In this document: positions 4,718 through 48,053 of the stretch, piece by piece
How the letters are laid out: each line of letters starts with the position of its first letter
Position numbering within the stretch: position 1 is the stretch's first letter
From: Nostoc sp. JL34
Lineage (GTDB): Bacteria; Cyanobacteriota; Cyanobacteriia; Cyanobacteriales; Nostocaceae
DNA length: 64,000 bases
Assembly (NCBI RefSeq): GCF_017114945.1
Contig: NZ_JABXKQ010000108.1
Coordinates: 62,001-126,000, forward strand
Direction: 5' to 3'
Notes under the pieces: generated by a model
What the model saw: only the letters and a program-made list of their open reading frames with translations
Database searches by the model: none
Told to the model about the DNA's origin: nothing
Position numbers and translations under genes: made by a program

Positions 4718-4846
4718 AGCCTTTTATTAGAACTCGTGAATTAATAATATGGAAAGTAATCTTCAGAATTAACATATTCTTCAGATGCGGATAAATATCT
4801 AGCTCAACACAAATACAATAAAGTCAAATTCAGACAAGGATAAAAA

Positions 4847-19416: not shown

Positions 19417-19448
19417 ATCAAAAAAGTTAGTCATTGCAGGATAAAATT

Positions 19449-20312: not shown

Positions 20313-20368
20313 AATTGGATATTAAAACAAACTCCCTAGTCATCCTGAAAGTCAAGGGGAATTAAAAC

Positions 20369-20620
20369 ATGTCAGAAATACAAGCAAAAATTAGAGAATT
20401 TTTGTCCCGATTTTTCCGAAATCATGATTTGCAGTTAGATGAAGATATTTTTGCACTTGGTTTTGTCAATTCCATGTTTGCTATGCAACTCGTCTTATTT
20501 ATTGAACAAGCATTTCAAATTAATATTGACAATGAAGACCTGGAGCTTGATAACTTTAGAACTATAAATTCTATGACTCGTTTAGTTGAACGCAAGACAG
20601 CTTTTGTTGCCCCAAAATGA
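20369..20620 (+). CDS. Free-standing acyl carrier protein (FkbJ/ZmaD type)
   Basis: 83 residues, the normal size for a discrete ACP. The phosphopantetheine Ser is in GFVNSMFAMQLV, the N-S-(L/M)-F-A variant typical of glyceryl/methoxymalonyl ACPs, rather than the GGDSL of the in-line carriers. An AAGGGG ribosome site precedes the ATG. It lies between the two dehydrogenases of the extender set and is the expected carrier of the glyceryl and hydroxymalonyl intermediates. Confidence 0.9.
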   Translation: MSEIQAKIREFLSRFFRNHDLQLDEDIFALGFVNSMFAMQLVLFIEQAFQINIDNEDLELDNFRTINSMTRLVERKTAFVAPK

Positions 20621-20665
20621 ACAAATATAAAATTCACAACTATTTTCAACAACCAAGTAATCATC

Positions 20666-21850: not shown

Positions 21851-21854
21851 GAAT

Positions 21855-27694: not shown

Positions 27695-29112
27695 AAGAAG
27701 ATATTCAAGATATATACCCACTATCTCCAATACAGCATGGTATGCTGTTTCACGGTTTGCACACTCCAGAAATGGGATTATATCATTCACAGTTTGTCTA
27801 CACTTTTAGTGGCAATCTGAACGTTGTTGCTTTTAAATACGCTTGGCAGCAAGTAGCAACTCAACACACAATCTTGCGTACCAGCTTCTATTGGGAAGAA
27901 TTGGATAAACCATTACAAGTTGTGCATCGGCAAGTAGAAGTACCTGTAGAGTACCAGGATTGGCAGGAACTCGATCCATTAGAACAACAAGAGCGTTTAA
28001 AGTCTTTTATCAACAGCGATCGCTTGCGGCGGTTTGATTTTTCCCAAGCACCTCTAATGCGTGTGGCTGTAATCCAGATTCAAGAAGATGTTTATTATCT
28101 TGTTTGGAGTAGCAACCTAATCATTCTCGATGGTTGGTCATATCCATTGGTATTAAATGATGTGATTGAAATTTATGAAGCATATTGTCGGGGTCAAGAT
28201 GCACCCTTAGCAGACGGCAGTTGTTTTAAAGACTACATCAAATGGTTGAAACAGCAGGATTTATCCAAAGCAGAGGAATTTTGGCGACAGCAACTCAATG
28301 AAGTAAAAGAGCCTACTCCCCTAACTAACCTATACTCAAACAACTTGTCCAATTTAGAAGAACGCTACGAGGATATACAAATCAGTCTATCGGAAGCAAC
28401 TACAAGAAATCTAGATTTATTAGCAAGACAGCATCACCTGACTATGAATACAATAGTTCAGGGAGTTTGGGCCATACTCCTTAGTCACTACAGTGGCAAA
28501 AAAGATGTAACTTATGGCTGTACTACTTCTGGTCGCCCAGTAGATTTAGAGCGATCGGAGTCAATGGTAGGGGAAATGGTTAATACCTTACCAGTCCACA
28601 TCAAGATAGATTTGGAGGAGTATTTATTACCTTGGCTTCAGCAATTACAAACTAAATTGATAGAAGTTCGAGAGTATGAGTATTCTCCACTGGTAGATAT
28701 TCAAAAGTGCAGTAAAGTACTGGGTAATGTGCCTTTGTTTGAGAGCTTTGTGGTGTTCGAGAACCAAAAAACAGGCAAGTTTCTGCAAGAATGGGGAAGT
28801 CTAAACATCTCTGAGCAAACTAGCTATTACAAAACAAACTATCCTCTAAATATAGTTGGGTATCCTGGCTCAGAACTGACGATTGGAATTAATTATGATT
28901 TTCGCCGCTTTGATGCAGCAGCAATAATTAATATATTGGAGCATTTCAAAATATTGCTCGAAGGTATAGTAACGAATCCTAAAGTGCGTCTTCAGGAGTT
29001 ATTGTTGCTTACGGAGCAAAAACCCCATATTAAATTATTAATGTTAGAAAAAGAAATGTCATTGGATTTCGATTCTATCTTGAACACTTCAATGGCTAAT
29101 ACAATACTTTAA
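27691..29112 (+). CDS. Free-standing condensation-like domain lacking the HHxxxDG histidines
   Basis: 473 residues, a complete C-domain fold and nothing else. The opening IYPLSPIQHGMLFH is of the type that follows epimerases (DCL). At the active site the HHxxxDG motif reads N142-L143-IILD147-G, so both histidines are gone while DGWS remains. Its paralogue at 44287 has the intact HHITTDG. It follows an E domain and precedes a protein that begins with half a C domain. It may be non-catalytic (a scaffold or gate), or the condensation may be done elsewhere. A single-exon frameshift does not explain it, since gene ends and ribosome sites are clean. Confidence 0.88.
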   Translation: MKEDIQDIYPLSPIQHGMLFHGLHTPEMGLYHSQFVYTFSGNLNVVAFKYAWQQVATQHTILRTSFYWEELDKPLQVVHRQVEVPVEYQDWQELDPLEQQERLKSFINSDRLRRFDFSQAPLMRVAVIQIQEDVYYLVWSSNLIILDGWSYPLVLNDVIEIYEAYCRGQDAPLADGSCFKDYIKWLKQQDLSKAEEFWRQQLNEVKEPTPLTNLYSNNLSNLEERYEDIQISLSEATTRNLDLLARQHHLTMNTIVQGVWAILLSHYSGKKDVTYGCTTSGRPVDLERSESMVGEMVNTLPVHIKIDLEEYLLPWLQQLQTKLIEVREYEYSPLVDIQKCSKVLGNVPLFESFVVFENQKTGKFLQEWGSLNISEQTSYYKTNYPLNIVGYPGSELTIGINYDFRRFDAAAIINILEHFKILLEGIVTNPKVRLQELLLLTEQKPHIKLLMLEKEMSLDFDSILNTSMANTIL

Positions 29113-29230: not shown

Positions 29231-31978
29231 ATGAGTACACATTTAGACTCTAATGACTTATTATCTCAAAAAATCTATTGGATAAATAAACTTTCGGGAG
29301 AATTACCTGAAACAAATCTGATGTTGGACTATGTAAGACCTTTATTTTATAGCGGTAAAAACAAATCTCTTAGCTTTGATTTATCAAACGATTTATCTCA
29401 ATCAATTATTAAGCTAGCTCAAGGTTCTTACTTTTCAATGTACTGGATACTAGTATCTGCATTGAATATATTGCTGCAAAAGTATACTCGAAACAATGAT
29501 GTTATTATTGGAATACCAATATATGAGAAAATTTTTTTAGATGAGATAAATAACAAAGTTATTCCATTACATACTCAGGTAAAACCTCATCTCTCATTCA
29601 AAGATTTTCTTTTTCAAGTTAAAGACTCAATCATCAGTGCTTACAACAACCAAAGCTATAATTTTGATGAATTAATCCAGTTGTTGAATATATCAAAAAG
29701 TCCTAACCGCCATCCAATTTTTGACATAGTAGTTTGTTTAGAAAATATTCATAATAAAAGTCCTTTAAATCAACTCAATAATGATATTACAATTTCTTTT
29801 AAAGTTGATTGTGGAAGTATTAGTGCTGATATAGAGTATAAAGAACATTTGTTTCAAGATGAAAATATAAAATTTATGAGTAGATATTATAGTAATATTC
29901 TTGGAAGCTGTATTAATCAAGTAAATACTAAGATATCAGAGATTGTTTTCTTAAAAGACTATGAGCAACACCAGATATTAACAGAGTTTAATAACAAAAC
30001 TAAACAGTATCCCGTTAATCAGACAATAAATCAATTATTTGAAACTCAAGTATCTCAGACTCCAAATAATATAGCCGTCATTCATCAACAAACTCAACTC
30101 ACGTATCAAGAACTAAACCATCAAGCGAATCAGCTAGCTGAATTATTGCGGAAATTAGGAGTTGAACAAGGAGACTTTGTAGGCATTTTTAAAGACCGTG
30201 ATATCAATTTCCTGATTGCTATTCTTGCTATATACAAGGCAGGTGGTGCATATGTACCTATTGATAGTACTTACCCACCAAATCGAATTAAGTATATGCT
30301 ATCTAATAGCGAAGTGAGGTTCTTATTAACAGATTTTTCGCTCTTAAATGTTCTATCAGACCTGGTAGAAGGTTGTTCCGAGTTATCCTCTATTATTTGT
30401 TTAGATAGCATTGTTATTGCTCAGACGCCCCTTGCTAAACAAACCGGGTTAAAAATATATAATAAATTGGATTTTCAGCAGCTATCTAATGATAATATAG
30501 AACAGGTTAATCATGCTGCTGACCCAGCTTATATGCTTTATACTTCCGGGTCTACAGGATTACCAAAGGGGGCAATTGTCAGGCATGATGGTGCAATTAA
30601 TCATATTTATGCCCAATTTGATGAGTTGGAGTTAACGCAAGAGTTTTCTTTTCTGCAAAGTGCTCCATCTTCCACAGATATTTCTGTATGGCAATTTTTA
30701 GCACCACTTTTAATTGGTGGTCAGACGGTAATAGTAGATATAGAAACCGTTGCTATTCCTGAGCAACTATTTCTTGCTCTGAAATCTGAGAAAATTACAG
30801 TTGTTGAATTAGTCCCAGCATTATTTGTCGGCTTGCTTGAATATACTTCTCAGCTACCGATTCATCAAAGAGAATTACCTAATTTAAAATGGATGATGGT
30901 TGTAGGAGAACCAGTATCGGTCAGTTTGGTAAATAGGTGGCTTGAGATATATCCCGAAATTAAAATTGTTAACGCTTATGGCCCAACTGAGGCTGCTGAT
31001 GATATCACCCAGTTTATCGTTGACAAGCCTTTGCCAGAAAATCAGCGGACGGTTCCAATTGGTAAACCATTAGCTAACTTAAATCTCTACATTCTGGATG
31101 GAGAAATGCAATTATTACCCATTGGCGCTCCTGGAGAGATTTGTGTATCGGGAATTGGTGTGGGTGATGGGTACTGGAAAAATCAAGAAAAAACTAATTT
31201 CAGCTTTGTGACTAACCCGTTTACAGATGTTAGTCAGAAATTACCAGAAAATCGCAGAGATTTAATTTATAAAACTGGAGATTTAGGAAGATGGCTTCCT
31301 GATGGGAATATAGAATTCCTCGGACGTATTGACCATCAGGTGAAGATTCGTGGCTTCCGGGTTGAACTTGGAGAAATTGAGACATTTTTGTGTCAGCACC
31401 AAGCTGTTAGAGAAGCTGTAGTTATAGTTATGGAGGAAAACCCTGATGATAAACGCTTAGTGGCTTATGTTGTTCCTAGGACTGAGAGCGATCGCAATGA
31501 TCTAAGTAGTAGCGAACTGGTTCAACAGTTACGCGATTTACTTAAAGAAAGGCTACCAGGCCATATGATACCTTCTGCGATTATACGGATCGAGGCATTG
31601 CCTTTAAGTCCTAGTGGTAAAATAGATCGCCGCGCATTACCTGTACCAAATTTCCAGAATGAATCGCAACTGGATTTTGTTGCACCCCGGACTCCCGCAG
31701 AGGAGATAGTTGCTGACATCTGGATTCAGATATTAAAGCGAGATCATATAGGCATTTACGATAACTTCTTTGATTTGGGTGGGCATTCTTTATTGGCGAC
31801 TCAAGCTATTTCCAGGTTGCGAGAAGCTTTTAAAGTAGAAGTACCTTTACGCACTTTATTTGAAGCACCTACACTAGCTCAATTGGTAGAAGGTATCGAA
31901 AAGATGCTTACAGTCCAACAACTACAGCTTGTTTCTATGGATGGGGTAGATCACGAGCGAGAGGAGATAGAACTATGA
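29231..31978 (+). CDS. NRPS half-C-A(Dab-like)-PCP, copy 1
   Basis: 915 residues. Residues ~1-215 match only the C-terminal lobe of a condensation domain (from IYWINKLSGELPETNLMLD onward); the N-lobe with HHxxxDG is absent. A domain ~240-740 with YTSGSTGLPKGAIV, NAYGPTEA and YKTGDLGRW. Specificity residues read D-I-W-E-M-V-A-D-D, close to the D-I-W-E-L-T-A-D-D code I recall for 2,4-diaminobutyrate; an ectB homologue at 46748 supports this. PCP has DNFFDLGGHSL. The tail is acidic (ends EREEIEL), suitable as a partner for the TubC-type docking domain at 32152. AAGGAAAG precedes the ATG. The stop overlaps an ATG of a docking-domain remnant. Confidence 0.93.
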   Translation: MSTHLDSNDLLSQKIYWINKLSGELPETNLMLDYVRPLFYSGKNKSLSFDLSNDLSQSIIKLAQGSYFSMYWILVSALNILLQKYTRNNDVIIGIPIYEKIFLDEINNKVIPLHTQVKPHLSFKDFLFQVKDSIISAYNNQSYNFDELIQLLNISKSPNRHPIFDIVVCLENIHNKSPLNQLNNDITISFKVDCGSISADIEYKEHLFQDENIKFMSRYYSNILGSCINQVNTKISEIVFLKDYEQHQILTEFNNKTKQYPVNQTINQLFETQVSQTPNNIAVIHQQTQLTYQELNHQANQLAELLRKLGVEQGDFVGIFKDRDINFLIAILAIYKAGGAYVPIDSTYPPNRIKYMLSNSEVRFLLTDFSLLNVLSDLVEGCSELSSIICLDSIVIAQTPLAKQTGLKIYNKLDFQQLSNDNIEQVNHAADPAYMLYTSGSTGLPKGAIVRHDGAINHIYAQFDELELTQEFSFLQSAPSSTDISVWQFLAPLLIGGQTVIVDIETVAIPEQLFLALKSEKITVVELVPALFVGLLEYTSQLPIHQRELPNLKWMMVVGEPVSVSLVNRWLEIYPEIKIVNAYGPTEAADDITQFIVDKPLPENQRTVPIGKPLANLNLYILDGEMQLLPIGAPGEICVSGIGVGDGYWKNQEKTNFSFVTNPFTDVSQKLPENRRDLIYKTGDLGRWLPDGNIEFLGRIDHQVKIRGFRVELGEIETFLCQHQAVREAVVIVMEENPDDKRLVAYVVPRTESDRNDLSSSELVQQLRDLLKERLPGHMIPSAIIRIEALPLSPSGKIDRRALPVPNFQNESQLDFVAPRTPAEEIVADIWIQILKRDHIGIYDNFFDLGGHSLLATQAISRLREAFKVEVPLRTLFEAPTLAQLVEGIEKMLTVQQLQLVSMDGVDHEREEIEL
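29713..31371 (+). repeat. 1659-bp direct repeat, copy 1 (C-lobe end and A domain)
   Basis: I found no mismatch with 48536-50194 (offset 18823) by eye along the lines compared, and the encoded proteins are identical. Sequence similarity drops abruptly at both borders. It covers the end of the half-C domain and the A domain up to about the A8 motif. Confidence 0.93.
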
Positions 31979-32151: not shown

Positions 32152-33795
32152 GTGAGCAGAAGCATTGACGAATTATTATTATACCTTGACAGCCTCAACG
32201 TCAAATTTAGAGTTGATGGCGATCGCTTATACTGTAATGCTCCTCAAGGAGTACTCTCACCAGATTTAAGCACTCAGTTGCGAGAGCGGAAACAAGAAAT
32301 CCTCAAACATTTAACATCAAGCGTTAATCTTCAGCCCATAGTACCTGTTCCTAGAAATACCAATTTACCCTTGTCCTTTGCCCAACAAAGGCTATGGTTT
32401 CTCAATCAGTTGGAGCCAAATAGCACCACTTATAACCTTCCCTTTGCCGTGCGTCTTACTGGTACGCTTAATATGCCTGCATTGGAGCAGAGTCTCAACG
32501 AAATTGTGCAGCGTCATGAAACCTTGCGAACCACTTTTGCGCTCGTCAATGGACAACCAATTCAGGTAATTACTCCAACCCTGACTTTGAAGCTATCTGT
32601 GGTGGACTTGCAAGAGTACCCAATAACAAAGCAGGAAGCTGAAGTTTTGCGGCTAGCAGTTCAAGAAAGCCAGTTGCTTTTTAACTTAGCGCAGGGGCCT
32701 TTGCTGAGAACGACTCTGTTGCACTTAAGTGAAAAACAATATGTCCTGTTGTTCACCATGCATCATATTGTCTCTGATGGTTGGTCAATAGGGCTACTCA
32801 TCAAAGAAGTAACAGCACTCTATGAAGCCTTCTGCAAAGGACAGCCTTCCCCACTTTCGGAACTACCAATTCAGTACGCGGACTTCGCAGCTTGGCAACA
32901 AAACTGGTTACAGGGTGAAGTACTTAACACCTTACTTACATATTGGAAAAAGCAGTTAGGAGATAACTTACCAGTTTTACAATTATCTAAAAATTATCGA
33001 TCTTCAGAAGTGAAAACCTCTCAAGAGGAACGACAAAGTTTAATCCTCTCTAAGACATTATCCCAAGCGATTAAGAAGCTAGGTGATAGTGTTGGAACGA
33101 CGTTATTTATGACGCTACTTGGAGCATTTAAAGTTTTGTTATCCTGGTATACAGGCGACAAAGATATTGTTGTTGGTACTGATATTGCCAACCGCAATAT
33201 GATTGAAGTAGAGAATTTAATTGGTTTTTTTGTTAATCAACTAGTATTACGTACTGACCTATTTGGCAACCCTGGTTTTAGCGATTTTTTGCAACGAGTT
33301 CGTAAGGTTTGCCTAGAAGCTTATGCTCACCAAGATTTACCATTTGAGAAACTAGTTAGCGCTCTTAATCCCAAACGAGACTTCAACCAAACTCCTCTAT
33401 TTCAAGTCAAGTTTATTCTCCAAAATGCTCCCATACATTCTTTAGAAGTTTCAAATTTAACCCTGGCTAGTTTAGATTTAGAAAATCCGGTAGGCAGAGT
33501 TGATTTACTCCTGGAATTAACAGATACAGAGCAAGGAATAGTTGGGTTATTAAAATATAGCAAAGACTTATTTGATACTAGTAGTATGGCCCGATTGCTA
33601 AATGCTTTTGAAACAATTTTATCTCAAATTGTTGTAGAGCCTGCTATTAACTTAAATCAGCTAGAAAAAATTGTCATTATATCAGATAAAGAATATCAAT
33701 TGAGTGAAGAACGAAAACGTAAAGAAAAATATCAACAAAAATTAAGCATAATTAAGCGAAAAGTAATTGGCATTTCAACCGAAGTAGAGAAGTAA
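32152..33795 (+). CDS. NRPS docking (TubC-type) plus free-standing C domain
   Basis: 547 residues. It starts at GTG with a strong AGGAGG 4 bases upstream (32142-32147). Residues ~1-58 are a TubC-type docking domain (YLDSLNVKFRVDGDRLYCNAP, then a conserved LRERKQEIL helix). Residues ~68-520 are an LCL-type condensation domain with intact HHIVSDG (from H204) and the NRN and VGFF-like motifs. No adenylation or carrier domain follows; the gene ends in a charged tail. It probably performs the condensation for the interface-A-PCP protein at 34959, with the hydroxylase gene placed between them. It ends one base before the next ATG. Confidence 0.93.
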   Translation: MSRSIDELLLYLDSLNVKFRVDGDRLYCNAPQGVLSPDLSTQLRERKQEILKHLTSSVNLQPIVPVPRNTNLPLSFAQQRLWFLNQLEPNSTTYNLPFAVRLTGTLNMPALEQSLNEIVQRHETLRTTFALVNGQPIQVITPTLTLKLSVVDLQEYPITKQEAEVLRLAVQESQLLFNLAQGPLLRTTLLHLSEKQYVLLFTMHHIVSDGWSIGLLIKEVTALYEAFCKGQPSPLSELPIQYADFAAWQQNWLQGEVLNTLLTYWKKQLGDNLPVLQLSKNYRSSEVKTSQEERQSLILSKTLSQAIKKLGDSVGTTLFMTLLGAFKVLLSWYTGDKDIVVGTDIANRNMIEVENLIGFFVNQLVLRTDLFGNPGFSDFLQRVRKVCLEAYAHQDLPFEKLVSALNPKRDFNQTPLFQVKFILQNAPIHSLEVSNLTLASLDLENPVGRVDLLLELTDTEQGIVGLLKYSKDLFDTSSMARLLNAFETILSQIVVEPAINLNQLEKIVIISDKEYQLSEERKRKEKYQQKLSIIKRKVIGISTEVEK

Positions 33796-33796
33796 A

Positions 33797-34852
33797 ATGA
33801 AACAGGTAAAAATAAGTAATTCTCATCTCAAGCCTGAATTCAATAAAGTTAGTAGAAAATCTATAAATTTACAGATCGAACTAATTAAGCTAGATAATTT
33901 GGGAGGAGATCAAACCCTACCGTTAATTATCAAACCATCTGTATTAGATGTTGATCTTGCAGATTGGGCTGAGGCAAATCAGGAATTTATAGATACAAAT
34001 TTAATCAAACATGGTGCTATACTTTTCAGAGACTTTAATATTACGACAGCAGCCGCATTTGAAAAGTTTGGTCTAGCGGTTTGCTCAGAACTATTCAATG
34101 AAAATGGCGAACATAACCGTGAAACAGTAACTGGTAAAGTTTATACTCCAGTTTTTTACCCTGCGGATAGCAAGTTATTGTGGCATAACGAGAATTCTTT
34201 TAATTATCGATGGCCTGTGAAAATTTTGTTCGGCTGTCGTCAACCTGCACAGCAAGGAGGAGAAACCCCAATAGTTGATAGTCGTAAGGTGTTTCAACTT
34301 ATAGAACCCAAGATTAGGGAGCAGTTCGTTGAAAAGCAAGTTATGTATGTTCGTAATTATGGAAACGGATTAGGGCTTGACTGGCAAACAGTTTTTCAAA
34401 CTCAAAGTAGAGCAGATGTAGAAAAGTTTTGTCAAAGTAACTTAATTGATTTTGAATGGAAAAACGATGGTGGTTTGAGAACTATTTCTATTCGTCCAGC
34501 CGTAATCAAGCATCCTCAGACAGATGAACTTTCTTGGTTTAATCAAGCACAACATTGGCATTTAGCTTGTTTAGATATACAAACTCGTGAGTCACTACTG
34601 TCATCTTTTAAGAAAGAAGATTTACCACGAAACTGCTTTTACGGAGATGGTACTCCTATTGAAGACTCTACAATGATTGATATCTGTGGAGTATATCAGA
34701 GATTAGAAGTATGTTTTCCTTGGCAACAAGGAGACATATTGTTACTAGACAACGTATTAACTGCTCATGGACGCAATCCCTATGTAGGAAAACGTAAGCT
34801 TTTTGTTGCGATGAGCGAACTAACAAGTTTTAGTCAAGCTTTAGATAGTTAA
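33797..34852 (+). CDS. TauD/SyrP-like Fe(II)/2-oxoglutarate hydroxylase
   Basis: 351 residues. Iron ligands are H130 and E132 (HNE, HxE type) and H324 in TAHGRNPYVGKRK, with a downstream Arg for 2-oxoglutarate. It resembles the SyrP group, which acts on carrier-bound residues. It is sandwiched between a C domain and a C-like/A(Asn)/PCP protein, the genetic order expected for in-line beta-hydroxylation of Asn. It is only distantly similar to the hydroxylase at 2339, so the two may differ in substrate or stereochemistry (inference). Confidence 0.88.
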   Translation: MKQVKISNSHLKPEFNKVSRKSINLQIELIKLDNLGGDQTLPLIIKPSVLDVDLADWAEANQEFIDTNLIKHGAILFRDFNITTAAAFEKFGLAVCSELFNENGEHNRETVTGKVYTPVFYPADSKLLWHNENSFNYRWPVKILFGCRQPAQQGGETPIVDSRKVFQLIEPKIREQFVEKQVMYVRNYGNGLGLDWQTVFQTQSRADVEKFCQSNLIDFEWKNDGGLRTISIRPAVIKHPQTDELSWFNQAQHWHLACLDIQTRESLLSSFKKEDLPRNCFYGDGTPIEDSTMIDICGVYQRLEVCFPWQQGDILLLDNVLTAHGRNPYVGKRKLFVAMSELTSFSQALDS

Positions 34853-34958
34853 TTTTTGCTTCAACTCACTACGTCAATGTTTTATTAACTCTCTGCTATT
34901 TATTAAAATTAAAATATCTGAAAAATTTTGACTAAATTTGAATAATTGAGAAATAAAA

Positions 34959-37900
34959 ATGCAACAAATAATTCAAGGTTTTCCACTATCTCCCCAACAA
35001 AAACATCTTTGGTTACTAGAACAAGATAGTAATTTATATCGCAGTCAATGTGCTATTCTTATTGAAGGAAATATAAAACTAGAGATACTAAAAGAAGCGT
35101 TACAGAAAGTTATTGCTAGAAATGAAATTCTTCGGACAAAGTTTCATCGTCCCCGAGGATTAAAAATACCTATCCAGGTTATAGATACTACTAGTAGTAT
35201 TCTTTTCAAGGAGTCTACTTTAGAAAATAAATCTTCTCAATATGAAGAGATAGAAGTACTTTTTAATAAAATAAGCGAACAATCTGTAAAATTAGATAAA
35301 GGGCAATTATTAAATATACAGTTGCTAAGTTGCTCATTAAATAAATACGTTTTATTTTTTAACTTACCATCTCTTTGTGCAGACTATAAGACATTAAAAA
35401 ATATAGTTGATGAAATTAGTCAGTATTACAGTGCCTGTTTGCAGAATGTAGAACTCAGCGAAGAACCACTACAATATGCTGATGTTGCTACATGGCAAAA
35501 TGAATTACTTGAAGCAGGAGAGAGAAAGTATTGGCAAGAAATAGATTTTTCGACCCTGGATAGCTTAAAGCTTCCTTTTGAGAATCGTCTTTCTGAAAAA
35601 TCGGAATTTGAACCCCAATTGATTAAGTTAGCAATTCATAGTGATTTACTCGCTAAAATTGAAGAAATTGTCCACAAATCTCAAATATCGATAGATATAT
35701 TTTTTCTTACTTGCTGGCAAATTCTACTTTGGCGTCTTACTGGGCAATCAAATTTAATTATAGGTCTAGGCTGTGATGGTCGCAATTATGAAGAGTTAAA
35801 AGCAGCACTAGGTTTATTTGCCAAATATTTACCGCTTGCTTATCATCTGCAAGAAAATGATACATTCAAAAATACTTTGGCACAGGTTAAAAAATTAACA
35901 AATGAAATACTTGAATGGCAGGATAGTTTTAGTTGGGACGCATTTACTCAAACAAACACAGATGATATAGAACAGTCATTTTTACCATTTTGTTTTGATT
36001 TTGAGGAAACAGAAACTAATTATTCTACTCCTCAAGTAGCATTTTCAATTTATCAGCATTATGTCTGCTTTGACCGATTTAAAATAAAGCTTTCTTGTAT
36101 CCGTACACAAAATCGGTTAGTCAAAATAGAGTTTCATTATGATGCAAAAGTTTTCTGTAAAGAAGATATTCAACGTTTAGCAGATCATTGGCAAACTTTG
36201 TTAATCAGTGTTATTAATAATCCTTCTACACCAATATCGCGGTTGAATATTCTCAGTGAACAAGAACGAGAACAACTCTTAGTTGCATTCAACAATAGTA
36301 AGACAGCAGAGCTACAATACAAGTGCATCCACCATTGGGTTGAACAGCAGTGCGATCGCACGCCAGACAATATTGCCATTATTTATAAAAATCAGCAATT
36401 TACCTACCGAGAATTGAACACTCGTGCTAACCAGCTAGCTCATTACCTACAACAATTAGGTGTAAAACCAGACGTAATGGTGGGACTTTGTGTCGAGCGA
36501 TCGCCTTTAATGCTGATTGGACTTTTAGCTGTCCTCAAAGCTGGTGGTGCTTATGTACCGATTGACCCTAGCTATCCCTTAGAAAGAAAAACTTTTATCC
36601 TAAATGATTCTCAAATGCCAGTGCTGCTGACTCAACAGCATTTAATGGCAGATTTAGCTACAAATGGAATTAAAGTAATTTGTATAGATAGTGATTGGCA
36701 AGCCATCAACCAACAAAAAGTTGAAAATCCAAGTACTACAACAACCGAATTAAATTTAGCCTATGTTATTTACACCTCTGGTTCTACTGGTAAACCCAAA
36801 GGAACTCTAATTCCTCATCAAGGATTAATTAACTACTTGAGTTGGTGTACCCAAACATATGCAGTACAAGAAGGAGTCGGAACTTTAGTTCATTCACCTT
36901 TGGGTTTTGACTTAACAATCACTAGTCTTTTTTCACCTTTATTAGTTGGTCGTACAGTAGAATTACTATCAGAAGAACAAGGCATTGAAACCTTTTCTCA
37001 AGCTTTAAGTAAAAGCTCGAATTTAAGTTTGGTAAAAATTACCCCTGCTCACTTGGATTTGCTGAAGCAACAGTTATCTAAAGAAGAGATTGGCAATAAA
37101 ACGAGAGCTTTTATTATTGGTGGCGAAAATTTATTAGCTGAAAGCATCACCTTCTGGCAAGATGTAGCTCCAGATACAATTTTAGTAAACGAATACGGGC
37201 CTACAGAGACAGTAGTAGGCTGCTGTGTTTATCAGGTTCCAATAGGTAAACACGCTTCCGGTTCCATACCCATTGGTAAGGCGATCGCTAATACCCAGTT
37301 ATACATTTTAGACCAATATTTGCAACCAGTATCAATGGGGGTATCCGGTGAATTGCACATTGGCGGACTTGGATTAGCCAGAGGCTATCTAAATCAACCT
37401 GAATTAACAGCCCTAAAGTTTATCCCCAATCCCTTTAGCAAACAAGAAGGCGATCGCCTTTACAAAACAGGTGATTTAGTTCGCTTTCTACCAAGTGGAG
37501 ATATCGAGTATATCGGTCGCATTGATAACCAAGTGAAAATACGTGGGTTCCGTGTTGAACTAGGAGAAATTGAAGCGACTATTAATCAACATCCATCAAT
37601 ATCGACAAGTGTAGTTATTGTTAGAGAGGATAAATCTGGAAATCAAAGTTTAATAGCCTATGTAACTCTTCACTCAGACAAAGCACTAACAATTCCTGAA
37701 CTGCGCCGCTTCTTGCAGAATAAATTGCTTGATCATATGGTGCCAACAGCCTTTATGATATTAGAAGCATTACCATTAACATCTAATGGCAAAGTAGACC
37801 GTCAAGCCTTGCCAATGCCCGACGCTCTGCGCCCAGAATTAGAAGTTGCTTATGTGGTACCGCAAACTGAGGTGGAGAAGACAATAGCCTCTGTTTGGCA

Positions 37901-38195
37901 AAAAGCTTTGAATCTTGAAAAGATAGGCATTCACGATAATTTTTTTGAAATTGGCGGTCATTCATTACTTTTAGTTACAGTTCACAGCCAATTGCAGGAA
38001 ATATTAAAAGCAGAACTGTCAACCCTTGATTTGTTTAGATATCCTACCATCAATTCTTTAGCAGAGTATTTAAATTCATCTCCAAATACCACAGCATTTT
38101 TACAGGAAAGCGATACTCAAGCAGAGAAAATTTCATCTGGTAAGGCGCAACAAAAAAAACGTCTAGAAAAAATGAAATCAGTTGAAAATAATTAA
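34959..38195 (+). CDS. NRPS interface-like(C-type)-A(Asn-like)-PCP
   Basis: 1078 residues. The first ~450 residues have a condensation fold, but the HHxxxDG site reads L136-P137-SLCAD, with both histidines lost. This resembles the interface domains described for NRPSs that recruit a stand-alone Asp beta-hydroxylase in siderophore pathways. A domain ~455-960; specificity residues read D-L-T-K-I-G-E-V-G, the same Asn-type code as the first gene. PCP with HDNFFEIGGHSL. The basic tail (KAQQKKRLEKMK) fits hand-over to the KS protein at 38210. Together with 32152 and 33797 it forms one split C / hydroxylase / interface-A-T station. Confidence 0.92.
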   Translation: MQQIIQGFPLSPQQKHLWLLEQDSNLYRSQCAILIEGNIKLEILKEALQKVIARNEILRTKFHRPRGLKIPIQVIDTTSSILFKESTLENKSSQYEEIEVLFNKISEQSVKLDKGQLLNIQLLSCSLNKYVLFFNLPSLCADYKTLKNIVDEISQYYSACLQNVELSEEPLQYADVATWQNELLEAGERKYWQEIDFSTLDSLKLPFENRLSEKSEFEPQLIKLAIHSDLLAKIEEIVHKSQISIDIFFLTCWQILLWRLTGQSNLIIGLGCDGRNYEELKAALGLFAKYLPLAYHLQENDTFKNTLAQVKKLTNEILEWQDSFSWDAFTQTNTDDIEQSFLPFCFDFEETETNYSTPQVAFSIYQHYVCFDRFKIKLSCIRTQNRLVKIEFHYDAKVFCKEDIQRLADHWQTLLISVINNPSTPISRLNILSEQEREQLLVAFNNSKTAELQYKCIHHWVEQQCDRTPDNIAIIYKNQQFTYRELNTRANQLAHYLQQLGVKPDVMVGLCVERSPLMLIGLLAVLKAGGAYVPIDPSYPLERKTFILNDSQMPVLLTQQHLMADLATNGIKVICIDSDWQAINQQKVENPSTTTTELNLAYVIYTSGSTGKPKGTLIPHQGLINYLSWCTQTYAVQEGVGTLVHSPLGFDLTITSLFSPLLVGRTVELLSEEQGIETFSQALSKSSNLSLVKITPAHLDLLKQQLSKEEIGNKTRAFIIGGENLLAESITFWQDVAPDTILVNEYGPTETVVGCCVYQVPIGKHASGSIPIGKAIANTQLYILDQYLQPVSMGVSGELHIGGLGLARGYLNQPELTALKFIPNPFSKQEGDRLYKTGDLVRFLPSGDIEYIGRIDNQVKIRGFRVELGEIEATINQHPSISTSVVIVREDKSGNQSLIAYVTLHSDKALTIPELRRFLQNKLLDHMVPTAFMILEALPLTSNGKVDRQALPMPDALRPELEVAYVVPQTEVEKTIASVWQKALNLEKIGIHDNFFEIGGHSLLLVTVHSQLQEILKAELSTLDLFRYPTINSLAEYLNSSPNTTAFLQESDTQAEKISSGKAQQKKRLEKMKSVENN

Positions 38196-38209: not shown

Positions 38210-41200
38210 ATGAGTATTCCAACTGGTGCAGATCATAGTAACGGTTCAGAAATAGCAATTATTGGATTAGCAGGAAGATTTCCTGGAGCTAAAAATATTG
38301 ATGAATTTTGGCATAACCTCAAAAATGGTATAGAATCAATTTCTTGGTTCAGCGATCAAGAACTGTTGGAATCAGGAGTAGATGCAGCGCTTCTGGGCAA
38401 TCCCAGTTATGTGAAAAGAAATGCTGTGATCGAAGATGCAGAACTTTTTGATGCTGACTTTTTTGGTTTTAATCCCAGAGATGCAGAAATTACTGACCCG
38501 CAACATCGGATTTTTTTAGAGTGTGCTTGGGAAGCCCTGGAAAAAGCAGGCTATAATTCCGAAACATACAATGGTTCCATAGGTGTTTTTGCTGGTTCTA
38601 ACTTAAGCGGTTATTTATTAAACATTTATTTTAATCAAAATATTAGAAACTCAGTAGATGAACAACAAATAGCGATCGCTGGGGATAAAGATTACCTGGC
38701 TACACGTACTTCTTACAAACTTAATTTAACGGGGCCTAGTTATACAGTTCAAACAGCTTGCTCAACCTCATTAGTGGCCGTGCATTTAGCCTGCCAAAGT
38801 TTGCTTAACGGTGAATGTGATATGGCTTTGGTTGGTGGTGTTTCCATCAGCGCTTCAAGAAAATCTGGCTATCTTTATAATGAGGGAGGGATTAATTCTC
38901 CTGATGGACACTGCCGCGCCTTTGATGCTAAAGCACGGGGAACAGTGGGCGGAGAAGGTGTGGGAATCGTCGTTTTGAAAAGATTAGAAGATGCTCTAAC
39001 TGATAGAGATTCTATTGATGCTGTTATTAAAGGTTCGGCAATAAATAACGATGGTTCAAACAAAGTTAGTTACACAGCACCGCGTATAGAAGGTCAAGCT
39101 AAAGTTATTAAAACGGCTCAAGTTGTTGCAGAGTTAGAACCAGAAACAATAACTTATATTGAAGCTCACGGGACAGGAACATCTTTAGGAGATCCGATTG
39201 AAATTGCAGCACTGACGCAAGCATTTCAAAGCAGCACAAAAAAGAAAGGCTTCTGTGCAATTGGTTCCTTAAAAACAAATATTGGTCATTTAGATGCCGC
39301 TGCTGGTGTTGCAGGTTTAATTAAAACTGTCTTAGCTCTTAAACACAAACAAATTCCTCCTAGTCTGCACTTTGAGGAACCAAATCCTCAAATTGATTTT
39401 GCCAATAGCCCCTTTTATGTCAACAATAAACTTTCCCAATGGAAAGTAGACAAACATCCTAGACGCGCAGGAGTTAGTTCTTTTGGAATTGGTGGTACTA
39501 ATGCTCATGTAATTTTAGAAGAAGCTCCACTTTTTACAAGTCAAGAAAGTATTTCTCGCCCCTGGCAGTTGTTAGCAATCTCTGCAAAAACTCAAACAGC
39601 TTTAGAATCTACTACAACTAACCTTACCAATTATTTAACACAATATCCTGATATCAACCTTGCTGATGTAGCTCATACTTTACAAGTTGGCCGTCGAAAT
39701 TTTAGCCATCGTCGAGTGTTGCTGTGTCAGGATATTCAAGATGCTATAAAAATATTAACAGCGTCAAATCAACAAGGAGTTTTCAGTAATTTCTCAGAAA
39801 CCCGTAACCATTCAATCGTGTTTATGTTTCCCGGACAGGGAGCGCAGTATGTAAACATGGGACGGGAATTATATAAAACAGAAGCAATTTTTCGAGAACA
39901 AGTTGATGATTGCTGTGAATTACTCAAACCACATTTAAAGTTAAATCTCAAAGATATACTTTATCCCTCGACAATAGAAGCTACACAAGAAAAACTTAAA
40001 CAAACTTCCTTAACACAAGTTGCGCTATTTGTGATTGAATATGCTCTTGCTAAACTTTGGATGGCGTGGGGTGTACATCCGCAAGTGATGATTGGTCACA
40101 GCATTGGTGAGTATGTAGCTGCTTGTATTTCAGGTGTTTTTTCTTTAGAAGAGGCATTGACTTTAGTCGTAATTCGCGGACGACTGATGCAACAAGTCGA
40201 ACCAGGGTCAATGCTTTCTGTTTCTCTCTCTGCCAAAGAAATACAACCTATGTTGGGTTCAGAACTTTCTTTAGCAGCTAGCAATGCACCATCTCTTTGT
40301 GTGGTTTCTGGTGCTACTAATGCGATAGAACTATTACAAAATAGTTTGATAGAACAAGGTGTTGATTGTCGTCGGCTGCATACATCTCATGCTTTTCATT
40401 CTCAGATGATGGAGCCGATTTTAGAGCCATTTCTCCGGCATGTTAGAGAAGTCAACCTGAAACCACCTCAAATTCCTTTTGTTTCCAACGTTACCGGAAC
40501 TTGGATTATGGCAAAGCAGGCGACTGATCCTGACTACTGGGCTAGACACCTACGACAACCCGTATTATTTAACGAGGGAATCATTGAACTGCTGCAACAG
40601 CCAGAGCGAATGCTATTGGAAGTTGGCCCAGGACGAACGCTAACTACCTTAGCTAAACGACAGTCGATTTCACAGACTGTAGTCCTAACTTCCTTGCGAC
40701 ATCCCCAAGAGCAAATTTCTGATGTAGCATTTTTACTCAATACTCTCTCTCGGCTTTGGCTATCAGGATTGCAAATAAACTGGGCAGGCTTTTATACAAA
40801 GGAGCAACGCAGACATATTCCTTTGCCTACCTATCCTTTTGAGCGTCAGCGTTACTGGATTGAAGCTAACCCCGAAACTGTATTATCAAAGGCATGGCAA
40901 AAATCATCAGGTAAAAAGCCAGATATTGCTGATTGGTTTTATGTCCCAATCTGGAAACAATCTACACCACTTGAGTTCTTCCAAGGGAAGAAAATAGTAA
41001 CCGATAAAAATACTCGCTGGTTAGTTTTTATCGATGACTATGGAATTGGAAGCGAAGTTGCTAAACGACTCGAACAACAAAGTCAAAATGTTGTTAAAGT
41101 TAGGGTCGCAGATAAATTTACTAAGCTGAATAAATATACATATACTGTTAACCCACGGCAAAGCGATGACTACGATGCCTTGCTTCAAGAACTCCAAAAA

Positions 41201-44200
41201 GAGAGTTTGATTCCAAATGGATTAGCTCACTTTTGGAGCATTACACCAAATGATACGTTACCTTGCAATGAGTTAAAAGAACAAACACAATTATCACATC
41301 AGTTTTTTGAAAATTGTCAGAATCTCGGTTTTTGGAGTTTGTTGTATTTAATACAGGCATTAGGAAGACAAAATATCAGCGATTCTCTGAAGCTGAGGGT
41401 TGTAACTAACAATCTACATAATGTTAGCGGCGACGAAAATTTACGCCCAGAAAAGGCAACAATATTGGGGCCGTGTAAGATAATTCCCAAGGAATATCTA
41501 AACATTAATTCCTGTCTGATCGATGTAGTAATTCCTGCTGCTAACATCTCACCAACACAAAAATTTATCGACTATCTGGTTACTGAGCTGACAACACAGG
41601 AAACTGATAATATCGTTGCTTATCGTGGATCTCATCGCTGGATTCAAACCTTTGAAACTGTTCGTTTGGATAATAGTACTCCAGCTAAAACTAGGTTAAA
41701 GCAAGAAGGAGTTTACTTAATTACTGGTGGACTTGGCGGTATCGGTTTGGTGCTGGCGGAATATTTAGCGAAGACAGTACAAGCTAAGTTAATTTTAATT
41801 GGCAGAAAGGGATTGCCGGAGCGATCGCAGTGGCAGCAATGGCTAGAAACTCATGATAGTAAGGATAGTGTCAGCTGCAAAATCCAAAAAATGCTAGCAC
41901 TTGAAGAGTTGGGGTCAGAGGTTGAGGTTAAAAGTGCCGATGTAGCTAGCTACGAACAAATGCAGGTAGCCGTTGCTGAAGCTTTAGAAAAATTTGGTCA
42001 AATCAATGGTGTCATCCATGCAGCGGGTATTGCTGGTGGTGGCATTGTTCAACTAAAAACACAGGATGTAGCAAACAGCGTATTAGCACCAAAAGTCAAA
42101 GGCACATTAGTATTAGAGGAGATTTTAAAGTTACAAAATATTAATTTAGATTTTTTAGTCCTTTGTTCATCTCAAAGCTCTATCTTGAGTGAATTTGGAC
42201 AGGTAGATTATTGTGCAGCGAATGCATTTCTGGATATTTATGCAGATTATCGGAATTCTAAATCTGACCAATTGACAGTGGCAATCAACTGGGGTACTTG
42301 GCAAGAGGTAGGGATGGCAGTAGAGACAGCACTACCAGAACAATTAAAACTTCAACGTGAAGAGGATCTCAAAAAAGGAATATTATCTCAAGAAGGTGCC
42401 GAAGCTTTTAATCGCATTTTGCTAAGTAGCTTGCCTCATGTTGTTGTATCCCCGCAAGACTTCCAAACAGTAATTGAACAGGACAATTCTTTCAATTATC
42501 TAGAACAAGAATTAGCCCTTTTATCAGAGACATCAAAAACAAATCTTTCTAAACTAAGCCATCCTCGTCCAAATTTGGCAAATGCTTATGTTGCTCCTTG
42601 TAACGAAGTTGAGCAGACCCTTGCTGATATTTGGCAACAATTTCTGGGAATCGATAAAGTTGGTATTCATGACAACTTTTTTGAATTGGCAGGAGATTCC
42701 ATCATTACAATTCAAATTGTTGCCAAAGCTAACCAACTAGGTTTGAAGTTGACTTCTCAACAAATGTTTATGCACCAAACTATCGCTGAATTAGCGACAG
42801 CAACAGGTGTAGCTGAAACTAACCTGAGTGAAAAGAGTTCAATAAATAGAGAACTATATCTAACACCTATTCAGCATCGCTTCTTTGAGCAGAATCAAGC
42901 AGATGCACATTCTTGTAACCAGTCTTTAATACTGGAAATGCAACAAATATGCGATCCTAAAGTATTAAAGCAGGCTGTAGAATATGTGATTGAATACCAC
43001 GATGTATTTCGTCTGCGTTTTCTTCAAAAAGAATCTAGCTGGCAGCAAATTAAAGCTAATACCAATGATATAATGGTATACAAGCATCTGGATTTGTCTG
43101 CACTTCCAGAAAATCAGCAAAAATATGCTTTTGAATCTGCGATCGCAGAACTACAAAGTAACTTCAACTTAAGTGAAGGGCCCCTTGTAAAAGTAGCTTT
43201 TATTGAATTGCGATCGCCGACAAATAGCTACCTAGTAATTACCATCCACCATCTTTTAATAGATGCTGTTTCTTGGCAGATTTTGCTAAAAGATTTACAA
43301 ACAGTTTATCAGCAACTGAGTCAAGGTAAAGCTATACAGTTGTCTGATAAAGGCACTTCATTCAAGCGCTGGAAGCAGTGTGTGCAAGAGTACGCTCAGA
43401 CATCAGAAATGATTCATGAGCAAGACTACTGGTTAGCAAAAGCTCAAAAACCTTTCTACAGTCTACTTGTTGACTATTCTGCAAGGGAAAATACAGTATC
43501 TAACACTGAGATAGTATCAATTTCTCTAGATAAACAGGAAACACAAGCCTTATTAAAAAATGTCAATAAGGCTTATAACACCCAGATAAACGATGTTCTC
43601 TTAACAGCGTTGGTGCAAGCTTTTGCAAAGTGGACAGGAGAGCAGCAATTATGGGTAGATGTTAAAGATAATGGTCGAGATATAATCTTCAAAGATGTTA
43701 ACGATATATCTCTATCTGATACGATTGGTTTATTTACAACTTGCTTCCCAGTCATTTTAGATATAACAGAGGCTTCCGATCAAGGAAGTGCATTGATAGC
43801 AGTCAAAGAGTATTTACGTAGCATTCAGAATAAAGGTATTGGGTACGATATACTGCGCTATATCAGAAGTAATTCAGAAATAAATTCCAAGCTAAAATCT
43901 TTTCCACAACCTCAAATAAGTTTTCATTACTTAGGTAACTTTGACCCTGTTATATCCCAGTCATATTTATTTGATTTAACCGGCCAGTCTATTAGACTCA
44001 ACCAAAGTCAAAATGCAAATCAATTTTACTTACTGGAAATAAATGGAATTATTGTTCAAGAACAACTGCAATTGAACTGGATTTATAGTACAGCGGTTCA
44101 TCGTCGAGAAACAATTGAAACTTTAGCTAAAAGCTTCATTGGAGCTATGCAAAGCATAATTGATCACTGTCAGTCTCTTGAGACAGAAAAATATACACCT

Positions 44201-44290
44201 TCTGACTTTCCCAGAGCTAACTTGAATCAACAAGACCTAGATAAATTCCTGACAAAAATTAATCGAGCAAGTGAGAAAAAAGCACAATGA
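38210..44290 (+). CDS. Type I PKS with terminal epimerase-like domain: KS-AT-KR-T-E(degenerate)
   Basis: 2026 residues. KS ~13-440 with C184; AT ~540-840 with S631 (GHSIGEY) and HAFH; KR ~890-1370 with intact GGLGGIG and Y1334 (YCAAN); carrier Ser S1497 in AGDSII. After the carrier comes an epimerisation-type domain (~1545-2010), not expected on a PKS module. Its motifs are eroded: HHLLIDAVSW (H1680-H1681; DG became DA), and the EGHGRE motif reads KDNGRD, losing the catalytic Glu. Carrier and E resemble the end of the Gln module at 22964, which suggests the NRPS T-E part was joined to a PKS. Expected output is a beta-hydroxy unit. The stop overlaps the next ATG. Confidence 0.93.
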   Translation: MSIPTGADHSNGSEIAIIGLAGRFPGAKNIDEFWHNLKNGIESISWFSDQELLESGVDAALLGNPSYVKRNAVIEDAELFDADFFGFNPRDAEITDPQHRIFLECAWEALEKAGYNSETYNGSIGVFAGSNLSGYLLNIYFNQNIRNSVDEQQIAIAGDKDYLATRTSYKLNLTGPSYTVQTACSTSLVAVHLACQSLLNGECDMALVGGVSISASRKSGYLYNEGGINSPDGHCRAFDAKARGTVGGEGVGIVVLKRLEDALTDRDSIDAVIKGSAINNDGSNKVSYTAPRIEGQAKVIKTAQVVAELEPETITYIEAHGTGTSLGDPIEIAALTQAFQSSTKKKGFCAIGSLKTNIGHLDAAAGVAGLIKTVLALKHKQIPPSLHFEEPNPQIDFANSPFYVNNKLSQWKVDKHPRRAGVSSFGIGGTNAHVILEEAPLFTSQESISRPWQLLAISAKTQTALESTTTNLTNYLTQYPDINLADVAHTLQVGRRNFSHRRVLLCQDIQDAIKILTASNQQGVFSNFSETRNHSIVFMFPGQGAQYVNMGRELYKTEAIFREQVDDCCELLKPHLKLNLKDILYPSTIEATQEKLKQTSLTQVALFVIEYALAKLWMAWGVHPQVMIGHSIGEYVAACISGVFSLEEALTLVVIRGRLMQQVEPGSMLSVSLSAKEIQPMLGSELSLAASNAPSLCVVSGATNAIELLQNSLIEQGVDCRRLHTSHAFHSQMMEPILEPFLRHVREVNLKPPQIPFVSNVTGTWIMAKQATDPDYWARHLRQPVLFNEGIIELLQQPERMLLEVGPGRTLTTLAKRQSISQTVVLTSLRHPQEQISDVAFLLNTLSRLWLSGLQINWAGFYTKEQRRHIPLPTYPFERQRYWIEANPETVLSKAWQKSSGKKPDIADWFYVPIWKQSTPLEFFQGKKIVTDKNTRWLVFIDDYGIGSEVAKRLEQQSQNVVKVRVADKFTKLNKYTYTVNPRQSDDYDALLQELQKESLIPNGLAHFWSITPNDTLPCNELKEQTQLSHQFFENCQNLGFWSLLYLIQALGRQNISDSLKLRVVTNNLHNVSGDENLRPEKATILGPCKIIPKEYLNINSCLIDVVIPAANISPTQKFIDYLVTELTTQETDNIVAYRGSHRWIQTFETVRLDNSTPAKTRLKQEGVYLITGGLGGIGLVLAEYLAKTVQAKLILIGRKGLPERSQWQQWLETHDSKDSVSCKIQKMLALEELGSEVEVKSADVASYEQMQVAVAEALEKFGQINGVIHAAGIAGGGIVQLKTQDVANSVLAPKVKGTLVLEEILKLQNINLDFLVLCSSQSSILSEFGQVDYCAANAFLDIYADYRNSKSDQLTVAINWGTWQEVGMAVETALPEQLKLQREEDLKKGILSQEGAEAFNRILLSSLPHVVVSPQDFQTVIEQDNSFNYLEQELALLSETSKTNLSKLSHPRPNLANAYVAPCNEVEQTLADIWQQFLGIDKVGIHDNFFELAGDSIITIQIVAKANQLGLKLTSQQMFMHQTIAELATATGVAETNLSEKSSINRELYLTPIQHRFFEQNQADAHSCNQSLILEMQQICDPKVLKQAVEYVIEYHDVFRLRFLQKESSWQQIKANTNDIMVYKHLDLSALPENQQKYAFESAIAELQSNFNLSEGPLVKVAFIELRSPTNSYLVITIHHLLIDAVSWQILLKDLQTVYQQLSQGKAIQLSDKGTSFKRWKQCVQEYAQTSEMIHEQDYWLAKAQKPFYSLLVDYSARENTVSNTEIVSISLDKQETQALLKNVNKAYNTQINDVLLTALVQAFAKWTGEQQLWVDVKDNGRDIIFKDVNDISLSDTIGLFTTCFPVILDITEASDQGSALIAVKEYLRSIQNKGIGYDILRYIRSNSEINSKLKSFPQPQISFHYLGNFDPVISQSYLFDLTGQSIRLNQSQNANQFYLLEINGIIVQEQLQLNWIYSTAVHRRETIETLAKSFIGAMQSIIDHCQSLETEKYTPSDFPRANLNQQDLDKFLTKINRASEKKAQ

Positions 44291-45690: not shown

Positions 45691-45780
45691 ATGACTGATA
45701 ATAAGTGAGTTTATTTCTGCCAATCAGCAAAAATATTGATCGCATTTATGAGAATTGACAAGATTCAAAAGGATAAAGCT

Positions 45781-46662
45781 ATGATTGTTTCATCTGCAAT
45801 AGAAAGAAGATACAAACTTTCAAGTGATGAATTCAATAAAGACTATGTTGAATTAGGAAAACCAGTCATAATTTCTGGAGTAATTCCCAGTTGGAATGGC
45901 TTTGATAAATGGTCTTTAAAATACCTTAAAGATTTATCTCCTTCTCTAAATATTTACGCCAAAAAATTTAGTAACGATGGAATTGAGATATGTAGTCTCA
46001 CAATGGAAAGATATATAGAATTAATAGAAAACTATGAAGAAAATCCTCAAAATAATGCTAGACCACCATATTGCCATGACTTACCTTTATTTAGTTTAAT
46101 ACCTTCTTTAGTAAAAGATGTTCAACCATTTCCTTTTGATTATTTGCCAGAATGGTATTGGCACGAGTGGTGGCGTTACTGCCAGTTTTTCTTGGGTTCT
46201 TCTAATAGTATTACACCACTACATTTTGATTGCCTTCTGACTAACAATATTTTCTTTCAAATTGTTGGACGTAAACAATTTACTATATTACTGCCTGAAG
46301 ATGCCAAATATTGTTATCGGAAAGGCTGGCGATGGTTTCTCGTTAATCCAGAAAACCCAGATTTAAATAAATACCCAGAATATAAAAATGCCAGACCGAT
46401 TAAATTTATTGTAAATCCTGGGGATATTGTATACATGCCTCCTGGAACACTGCATCATGTTCGGAGTTTAGATATGTCGATTTCTTTTAATATTGATTGG
46501 CATACTCAAAAAAGTTCGCTTAATGCTCTAGCAGCTATTACAAAAGGGATGCCACTTCAAAACTTATACTATAACTTTTTATTAGCTATGGGTTTAGTGT
46601 TAAAAGTACCTCCTCAAATTATTTTTAAATATTATAAGTCTTATCTTAATTATGTTTCTTAA
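45781..46662 (+). CDS. Cupin-8/JmjC-like Fe(II)/2-oxoglutarate oxygenase
   Basis: 293 residues from the ATG at 45781, which has AAAAGGA 7 bases upstream; an in-frame ATG at 45748 has no visible ribosome site. The double-stranded beta-helix carries H148-x-D150 (PLHFDC), the core FFQIVGRKQFTILLP, and the distal H225/H226 in PPGTLHH. Family members hydroxylate amino-acid side chains. Lying between a C domain and an EctB homologue in the Dab cassette, it may hydroxylate Dab or a neighbouring residue. It is unrelated in sequence to the two TauD-type hydroxylases. Confidence 0.85.
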   Translation: MIVSSAIERRYKLSSDEFNKDYVELGKPVIISGVIPSWNGFDKWSLKYLKDLSPSLNIYAKKFSNDGIEICSLTMERYIELIENYEENPQNNARPPYCHDLPLFSLIPSLVKDVQPFPFDYLPEWYWHEWWRYCQFFLGSSNSITPLHFDCLLTNNIFFQIVGRKQFTILLPEDAKYCYRKGWRWFLVNPENPDLNKYPEYKNARPIKFIVNPGDIVYMPPGTLHHVRSLDMSISFNIDWHTQKSSLNALAAITKGMPLQNLYYNFLLAMGLVLKVPPQIIFKYYKSYLNYVS

Positions 46663-48004: not shown

Positions 48005-48053
48005 GATATTAGCATTAATAAGTTTGCAAGTAATTGATTACAAGGATAAAACT

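Follow-up and report, generated by a model that had tools for sequence, protein, structure and literature searches.

The window analysed here, a stretch of 64,000 nucleotides from Nostoc sp. JL34 (contig NZ_JABXKQ010000108.1 of 156 kb, positions 62,001 to 126,000), contains three consecutive genes between positions 32152 and 38195 that probably form an asparagine-directed station for interface-type beta-hydroxylation, as part of a pathway to a lipopeptide siderophore built around nonribosomal peptide synthetases (NRPSs). Stations of this type are already known, and asparagine is the addition. In the scheme we propose, the adenylation (A) domain of the 34959 protein would load Asn onto its own carrier (T) domain, the inactive condensation (C)-like interface domain at the head of the same protein would dock the hydroxylase encoded at 33797, and this enzyme would oxidize the beta-carbon of the carrier-bound Asn. 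The free C domain encoded at 32152, tethered via a TubC-type docking domain to the preceding 29231 module, would join the chain to 3-hydroxy-Asn, and the chain would then pass to the polyketide synthase (PKS) encoded at 38210. The loading of Asn, the hydroxylation and its timing, the docking and the product are predictions read from sequence.

Gene content and order, domain classes, phylogeny, conservation, the statistical coupling of hydroxylase and interface domain and the siderophore context were computed directly. The reading frames, all on the forward strand, lie exactly where a preliminary description of the window had placed a free C domain, a hydroxylase and an interface-like/A/carrier protein, and profile searches confirmed their domains. 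The first protein (32152..33795, 547 amino acids) combines a TubC_N docking domain at residues 5–54 with a full and intact Condensation domain at residues 70–516 (364.7 bits; motif HHIVSDG). One base separates its gene from that of a stand-alone TauD-type Fe/2-oxoglutarate beta-hydroxylase (33797..34852, 351 amino acids; PF02668, 136.7 bits), a member of an asparagine-paired clade considered below, with the metal-ligand pattern HNE...H and with the HNE and AHGR motifs present. The third protein (34959..38195, 1078 amino acids) matched Condensation-like (residues 8–441, 208.3 bits), AMP-binding (462–811), AMP-binding_C and PP-binding profiles. It consists of an interface-type C-like domain of about residues 1–445 (34959..36300), in which LPSLCAD replaces HHxxxDG, an A domain placed by domain search and code alignment (approximate bounds 36330..37810), and a carrier domain found by domain search at residues 975–1038 (37880..38080). 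An identical three-gene arrangement is annotated on plasmid pNOS3756_1 of Nostoc sp. NIES-3756, and the hydroxylases of the two strains are 70% identical. Chlorogloeopsis fritschii PCC 6912 likewise carries the block. When the block was searched as DNA against plasmids, 62 records matched and none of them spanned 80% of it.

Interface-type beta-hydroxylation in siderophore NRPSs was reportedly described by Reitz et al. in PNAS in 2019. The phylogenetic check proposed in the preliminary description places the N-terminal domain of the 34959 protein with interface-type and not with ordinary C domains: in a tree of 109 C-like domains it falls within a clade of 38 rows supported at 97, SH-aLRT being the only support measure of this quick tree. 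This clade is made up of 35 LPxLCAD-type domains, among them the N-terminal domains of CcsI and CcsL from the cyanochelin B cluster, which carry LPxLCAD at the same motif site as the window, and of three proteobacterial domains that are flanked by a fused hydroxylase on one side and an A domain on the other and were assigned by position alone, one of them (L019) being a long branch. The L019 locus, from a plasmid of Bradyrhizobium japonicum USDA 123, is a non-cyanobacterial case: its fused hydroxylase is followed by an interface-like domain of divergent sequence, and its code, DLTKVGEVG, is asparagine-type. The HH of the condensation motif is missing in all 75 aligned interface rows. The tree took every fifth listed homologue (24 rows). 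Every C-like domain lacking HH before an A domain was automatically labelled I_LPxLCAD, and 5 of the 40 rows with this label lie in other parts of the tree and do not count as interface domains; the set against which the clade was compared comprised the cyanochelin B modules and position-assigned rows. The predicted structure of the interface-type domain has the C-domain fold (mean pLDDT 87.4), and a fold search of the PDB with it returned the same fold with many entries of the C superfamily tied, and therefore cannot tell interface from C domains. The 34959 domain thus belongs to the condensation superfamily without HHxxxDG, groups with domains of beta-hydroxy modules, lies directly before an A domain and is paired with a hydroxylase, which supports its assignment as an NRPS interface domain. 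In the same tree the free C domain encoded at 32152 groups with its NIES-3756 counterpart (98, again SH-aLRT), and the neighbours of this pair are C domains either fused to such hydroxylases or located before them.

Related loci were surveyed in one scan of genome contigs; they were selected for their similarity to the interface domain and limited to the best 80 of 364 stretches, which make up 75 loci. An early C profile had the interface domain of the window among its six seeds, while in later surveys a separate interface profile (from A1) was allowed to compete. Of 90 interface hits, 88 had the interface domain as the first domain found in its frame, and the remaining two were one domain hit twice; three of the 88 frames begin at a locus edge. 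A hydroxylase came directly before the interface domain in 57 of 74 interface-A modules, and none of 84 C-A modules from the same loci had one in the corresponding place; 3 of the 74 and 19 of the 84 had no upstream domain in reach. This difference in pairing supports the interface reading. Behind the 74 interface domains the A codes were asparagine-type in 30 cases, aspartate-type in 28, of the histidine type DSALIAEVW/DSVLIAEVW in 10 and other in 6. When the window is added to the 57 sets from fetched loci, a C-only frame and a stand-alone hydroxylase occur together in 20 of 58 hydroxylase/interface sets, and 14 of these 20 split sets, including that of the window, are asparagine-coded.

The usual order is thus C, hydroxylase, interface, A and T, with the hydroxylase either fused to C, as in the relatives P0026, P0027 and L012, or encoded by its own gene. 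The window departs from the fused layout only in that C and hydroxylase are separate genes, a split that it has in common with other cyanobacteria; the NIES-3756 block and the other split cyanobacterial sets rule out the window as its sole case. The preliminary description had seen in the block the known C-interface-A-T logic broken up by a hydroxylase gene. The position of the hydroxylase between C and interface holds, but an insertion into a broken order is not supported: the interface domain comes first in its frame almost throughout, the cyanochelin B cluster also has the hydroxylase after C, and since this order is common across the loci the broken-up reading is rejected.

In a mirror-tree comparison of 57 of the 58 sets (L040 was dropped as it has no C domain, and the rows are mutually related), the distances of the hydroxylase correlated with those of the interface domain at r 0.774, of the A domain at 0.740 and of the C domain at 0.391. 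The partial correlation between hydroxylase and C given interface was 0.045, while that between hydroxylase and interface given A was 0.546. Taken together, these values indicate that the hydroxylase is coupled to the interface and A domains and not to the C domain that it adjoins, and the coupling is the basis on which we infer that the interface domain docks the hydroxylase. In the hydroxylase tree, 23 of 26 asparagine-paired enzymes form one clade (100/100), all 23 are stand-alone, and the clade adjoins an aspartate-paired clade of fused enzymes that contains CcsFGH of the cyanochelin B cluster. In the interface tree, 25 of 31 asparagine-coded rows lie in one clade of 26 rows (100/100), and 23 of these 25 are accompanied by a hydroxylase. 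All trees were rooted at the midpoint, and adjacency is all that they say on branching order. In another hydroxylase comparison the window enzyme and its NIES-3756 counterpart adjoin the fused group (99/98), which places the enzyme phylogenetically beside the fused type (predicted 3S, L-threo) despite its being a separate gene; one row labelled fused in that comparison (F_P0002) is the query itself, which makes its counts of fused enzymes one too high. By the cut applied, positions 118, 119, 127, 193, 253, 257 and 286 of the window enzyme distinguish the asparagine-paired from the aspartate-paired group, these seven having been chosen from the rows that also defined the groups.

By alignment, the A domain of the 34959 protein has the code DLTKIGEVG, which is asparagine-type and not aspartate-type and so bears out the preliminary choice of Asn over Asp at the level of sequence; the loading of Asn is predicted from this code. 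PMC12283262 places DLTKIGEVGK in a group of Asn/beta-cyanoalanine (Cya-3) domains and holds that the beta-cyanoalanine of albicidin is thought to derive from Asn; it also reports that histidine codes of the DSALIAEVW kind accept a beta-hydroxyl group. The same station could nevertheless load Asp, although its code has E at position seven, and yield beta-hydroxy-Asp as in the cyanochelins, which we regard as unlikely. Such an outcome would suit a siderophore, where a carboxylate is favoured, and beta-hydroxy-Asp is the proven residue in the cyanobacterial interface-type product cyanochelin B (PMC12628792); Asp and Asn codes moreover overlap in part (PMC12283262). However, the window clade carries E at the seventh position, at which CcsI and CcsL (DLTKIGHVG) carry H, the hydroxylases as well as the interface domains largely divide by code, and the listing of DLTKIGEVGK with Asn/beta-cyanoalanine domains speaks for asparagine as the residue.

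The cluster around the three genes looks, from its sequence, like that of a lipopeptide siderophore, with uptake genes, a fatty-acyl ligase, NRPS/PKS genes and a thioesterase. Upstream of the block lie genes for two FecCD permeases, ABC proteins, a periplasmic binding protein, a TonB-dependent receptor, a penicillin acylase and a cupin_8 protein, as well as the fatty-acyl ligase with which the assembly line starts; a C-A-T-thioesterase protein and two P450s are encoded downstream. The cluster shares with the cyanochelin type the fatty-acyl ligase start, the NRPS/PKS character, a beta-hydroxylase and TonB-type uptake genes, and beta-hydroxy-Asp is missing from it as judged by the A codes alone. 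Six NRPS A codes were read in the window together with loci L004 and L005 (DLTKIGEVG twice, DAWQFGLID, DIWEMVADD twice and VDWIISLAN; a seventh row of that reading is the fatty-acyl ligase), and because none of them is aspartate-type the cluster was not classed as a cyanochelin cluster. Among the matches listed, a TonB receptor was found within 60 kb on the same contig in 20 of 21 asparagine-clade genomes, against about 2.2 expected from a simple length estimate based on receptor counts. The 21 loci are the asparagine clade minus the window and L027, which comes from the same genome as L025. That genome is represented by its copy on contig C131, while its second copy has a receptor at about 51 kb; in G065 a broken receptor copy is the nearest, with an intact receptor at about 46 kb; and L070, L090 and L091, which are asparagine-type loci outside the clade, were left out of the count. 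There is, in our judgement, about an even chance that this asparagine branch, with its matched clades of hydroxylase, interface and A domains in cyanobacterial (mostly Nostocales) siderophore clusters, makes 3-hydroxy-asparagine as a candidate iron ligand, the amide of which may be used as such or later turned into the acid.

Several observations weigh against an asparagine-directed interface station. Beta-hydroxy-Asn lacks the carboxylate that makes beta-hydroxy-Asp an iron ligand, and FecCD genes lie within 60 kb in only 9 of the 21 asparagine-clade genomes. Three of the 26 asparagine-paired hydroxylases (L070, L090 and L091) fall outside the main clade, as do six of the 31 asparagine-coded interface rows (L050, L055, L067, L070, L090 and L091), and the asparagine interface clade includes one differently coded row, L034. 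The Mantel p value was 0.001 for hydroxylase and C just as for interface and A, so that only the partial values separate these partners from C. A directly preceding hydroxylase is lacking in 17 of the 74 interface modules, which have instead a C domain (9), a locus edge (3), an A hit (2), a split interface hit (2) or a cupin_8 domain (1) before them, and an interface domain can thus occur without an adjacent hydroxylase. Five of the 17 (L045, L050, L055, L066 and L067) have an asparagine code. These five would fit a C-like domain that is merely a dead C domain, with the hydroxylase acting on free Asn or on another residue of the chain; hydroxylases of free Asn such as AsnO exist. We hold that possibility to be very unlikely in view of the pairing of hydroxylases with interface but not C-A modules, the partial correlations and the fusions of C and hydroxylase in relatives of the window. 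A weaker argument in the same direction is that a sequence search of the PDB at E≤1e-3 found only 1y0z and 9yut, and no AsnO or VioC entry. Hydroxylation of L-Asn for a daptomycin-like peptide is mentioned in PMC7524897, and the DLTKVGHVGK code, related to that of the window, is listed for both Asp and Asn in PMC12283262. Within the asparagine-type modules without a hydroxylase directly before them, L050, L055 and L067 form a clade of their own.

Cupin_8 enzymes are another conceivable source of the hydroxyl group. PMC7524897 attributes to them the 3-hydroxy-Asn and proposes them also for the 3-hydroxy-Leu of laxaphycins, and the cluster has two such genes (45736–46662, and 15481–16365 of L004), which could hydroxylate this or other residues and leave the TauD enzyme with another task. 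We give this very little credence: one of the cupin genes precedes an aminotransferase and a DIWEMVADD module, the other precedes the loading module, and 17 of the 22 fetched asparagine-clade loci had no cupin_8 hit within about 9 kb on each side, the other five (L022, L023, L024, L030 and L031) having one.

The interface-type station is flanked by further modules. Directly upstream, on the forward strand, the 29231..31978 protein comprises half a C domain, an A domain with the code DIWEMVADD and a T domain, and its acidic tail probably docks with the TubC_N head of the 32152 protein. The two ends suit a handover of the chain, a fit that we assume by analogy with TubB-TubC docking. This protein and that at 48024–50810 have only the C-terminal half of C (Pfam positions 186–456) before an A domain with DIWEMVADD, and are 85% identical over 887 residues; upstream of each lies a complete free C domain. 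Such half-C proteins are conserved, with 169 relatives at E≤1e-3 and a length of 890–930 amino acids in 105 of 120 among the matches listed. The free C domain at 27691–29112 has SNLIILDG at the HHxxxDG site and is thus possibly inactive. The aminotransferase at 46748–48004, a diaminobutyrate-2-oxoglutarate aminotransferase of the EctB type, is a likely source of diaminobutyrate for the half-C modules, and relatives that are 76% and 79% identical (1044–2294 in L087 and 15045–16328 in L089) stand directly before such modules. Downstream of the station, also on the forward strand, follows a PKS (38210..44290) of ketosynthase, acyltransferase, ketoreductase and acyl carrier domains with a C-terminal epimerization-type C-like domain, as found by domain search and the C tree; residues 1549–2005 are the part that clusters with epimerization domains. 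Another A domain with an asparagine code (3–3328) belongs to a fatty-acyl ligase-T-C-A-T protein that begins in L004 and has no interface domain; the enzyme encoded after it is a remote TauD relative that shares 25% identity with the 33797 product. Genes for a 3-hydroxyacyl-CoA dehydrogenase, an acyl-CoA dehydrogenase and FkbH (19434–22925) make up what we take to be the set for hydroxymalonyl-type extender units, and a glycosyltransferase, a carbamoyltransferase and a PanP-type aspartate 1-decarboxylase are encoded at 3455–6847 and 55645–57324 within the cluster.

If an asparagine-directed station is borne out, interface-type beta-hydroxylation, described for Asp and His, would gain a third residue. 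The hydroxylase is in any case seen to track the interface and A domains and not the C domain that it adjoins or is fused to. The E or H in the A code, together with hydroxylase positions such as 118, 119, 127, 193 and 253, could serve as a predictor of 3-hydroxy-Asn in cyanobacterial siderophores. The case would also allow a test of what sets the configuration of the beta-carbon, the fused or free gene layout or phylogeny: phylogeny predicts L-threo here, and the rule on fused and free enzymes cited in PMC12628792 predicts L-erythro.

Among known systems the cyanochelin B cluster of Leptolyngbya sp. NIES-3755 is the best yardstick since its product is solved. There (PMC12628792), CcsFGH carries at its end a C domain to which a hydroxylase is fused; next comes CcsI, which has a C-like domain at its head and installs beta-hydroxy-Asp, while the stand-alone hydroxylase CcsK is followed by CcsL, installer of the second beta-hydroxy-Asp. 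We took BAU16012 to be CcsI since it follows the fused protein. The order of the homologous C, hydroxylase, interface, A and T domains is the same as in the window, with one fused and one stand-alone hydroxylase in cyanochelin B. The window hydroxylase lies in the clade next to that of CcsFGH, and cyanochelin B differs further in the aspartate code DLTKIGHVG and in the beta-hydroxy-Asp of its product. With interface-type siderophore NRPSs generally the window shares a hydroxylase after C, an inactive C-like domain before A and a siderophore cluster; it differs in its Asn code, in place of Asp or His, and in the separate genes for C and hydroxylase. The X domain of glycopeptide NRPSs (PDB 4tx2 and 4tx3) recruits P450s and is not the closest to the window domain by Z score or by sequence. 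Laxaphycin and scytocyclamide are, like the predicted product of the window, made by cyanobacterial NRPSs that activate Asn as such and contain 3-hydroxy-Asn, but their hydroxylation is of the cupin_8 kind and their module has an epimerase. Beta-hydroxy-Asn also occurs in burkholdines (PMC12838130). The literature searched, in which subscription papers were mostly beyond reach, yielded no interface-type hydroxylation of Asn and no siderophore with 3-hydroxy-Asn. According to a census in eLife in 2026 (PMC12971057), the beta-hydroxylated residues known in siderophores are Asp and His, and cyanobacteria have two clades of Asp hydroxylases, CyanoBH_Asp1 and CyanoBH_Asp2, in addition to further unassigned clades. 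These enzymes and that of the window are alike cyanobacterial, siderophore-associated Fe/2-oxoglutarate beta-hydroxylases, and the asparagine-paired clade may be among the unassigned clades of the census.

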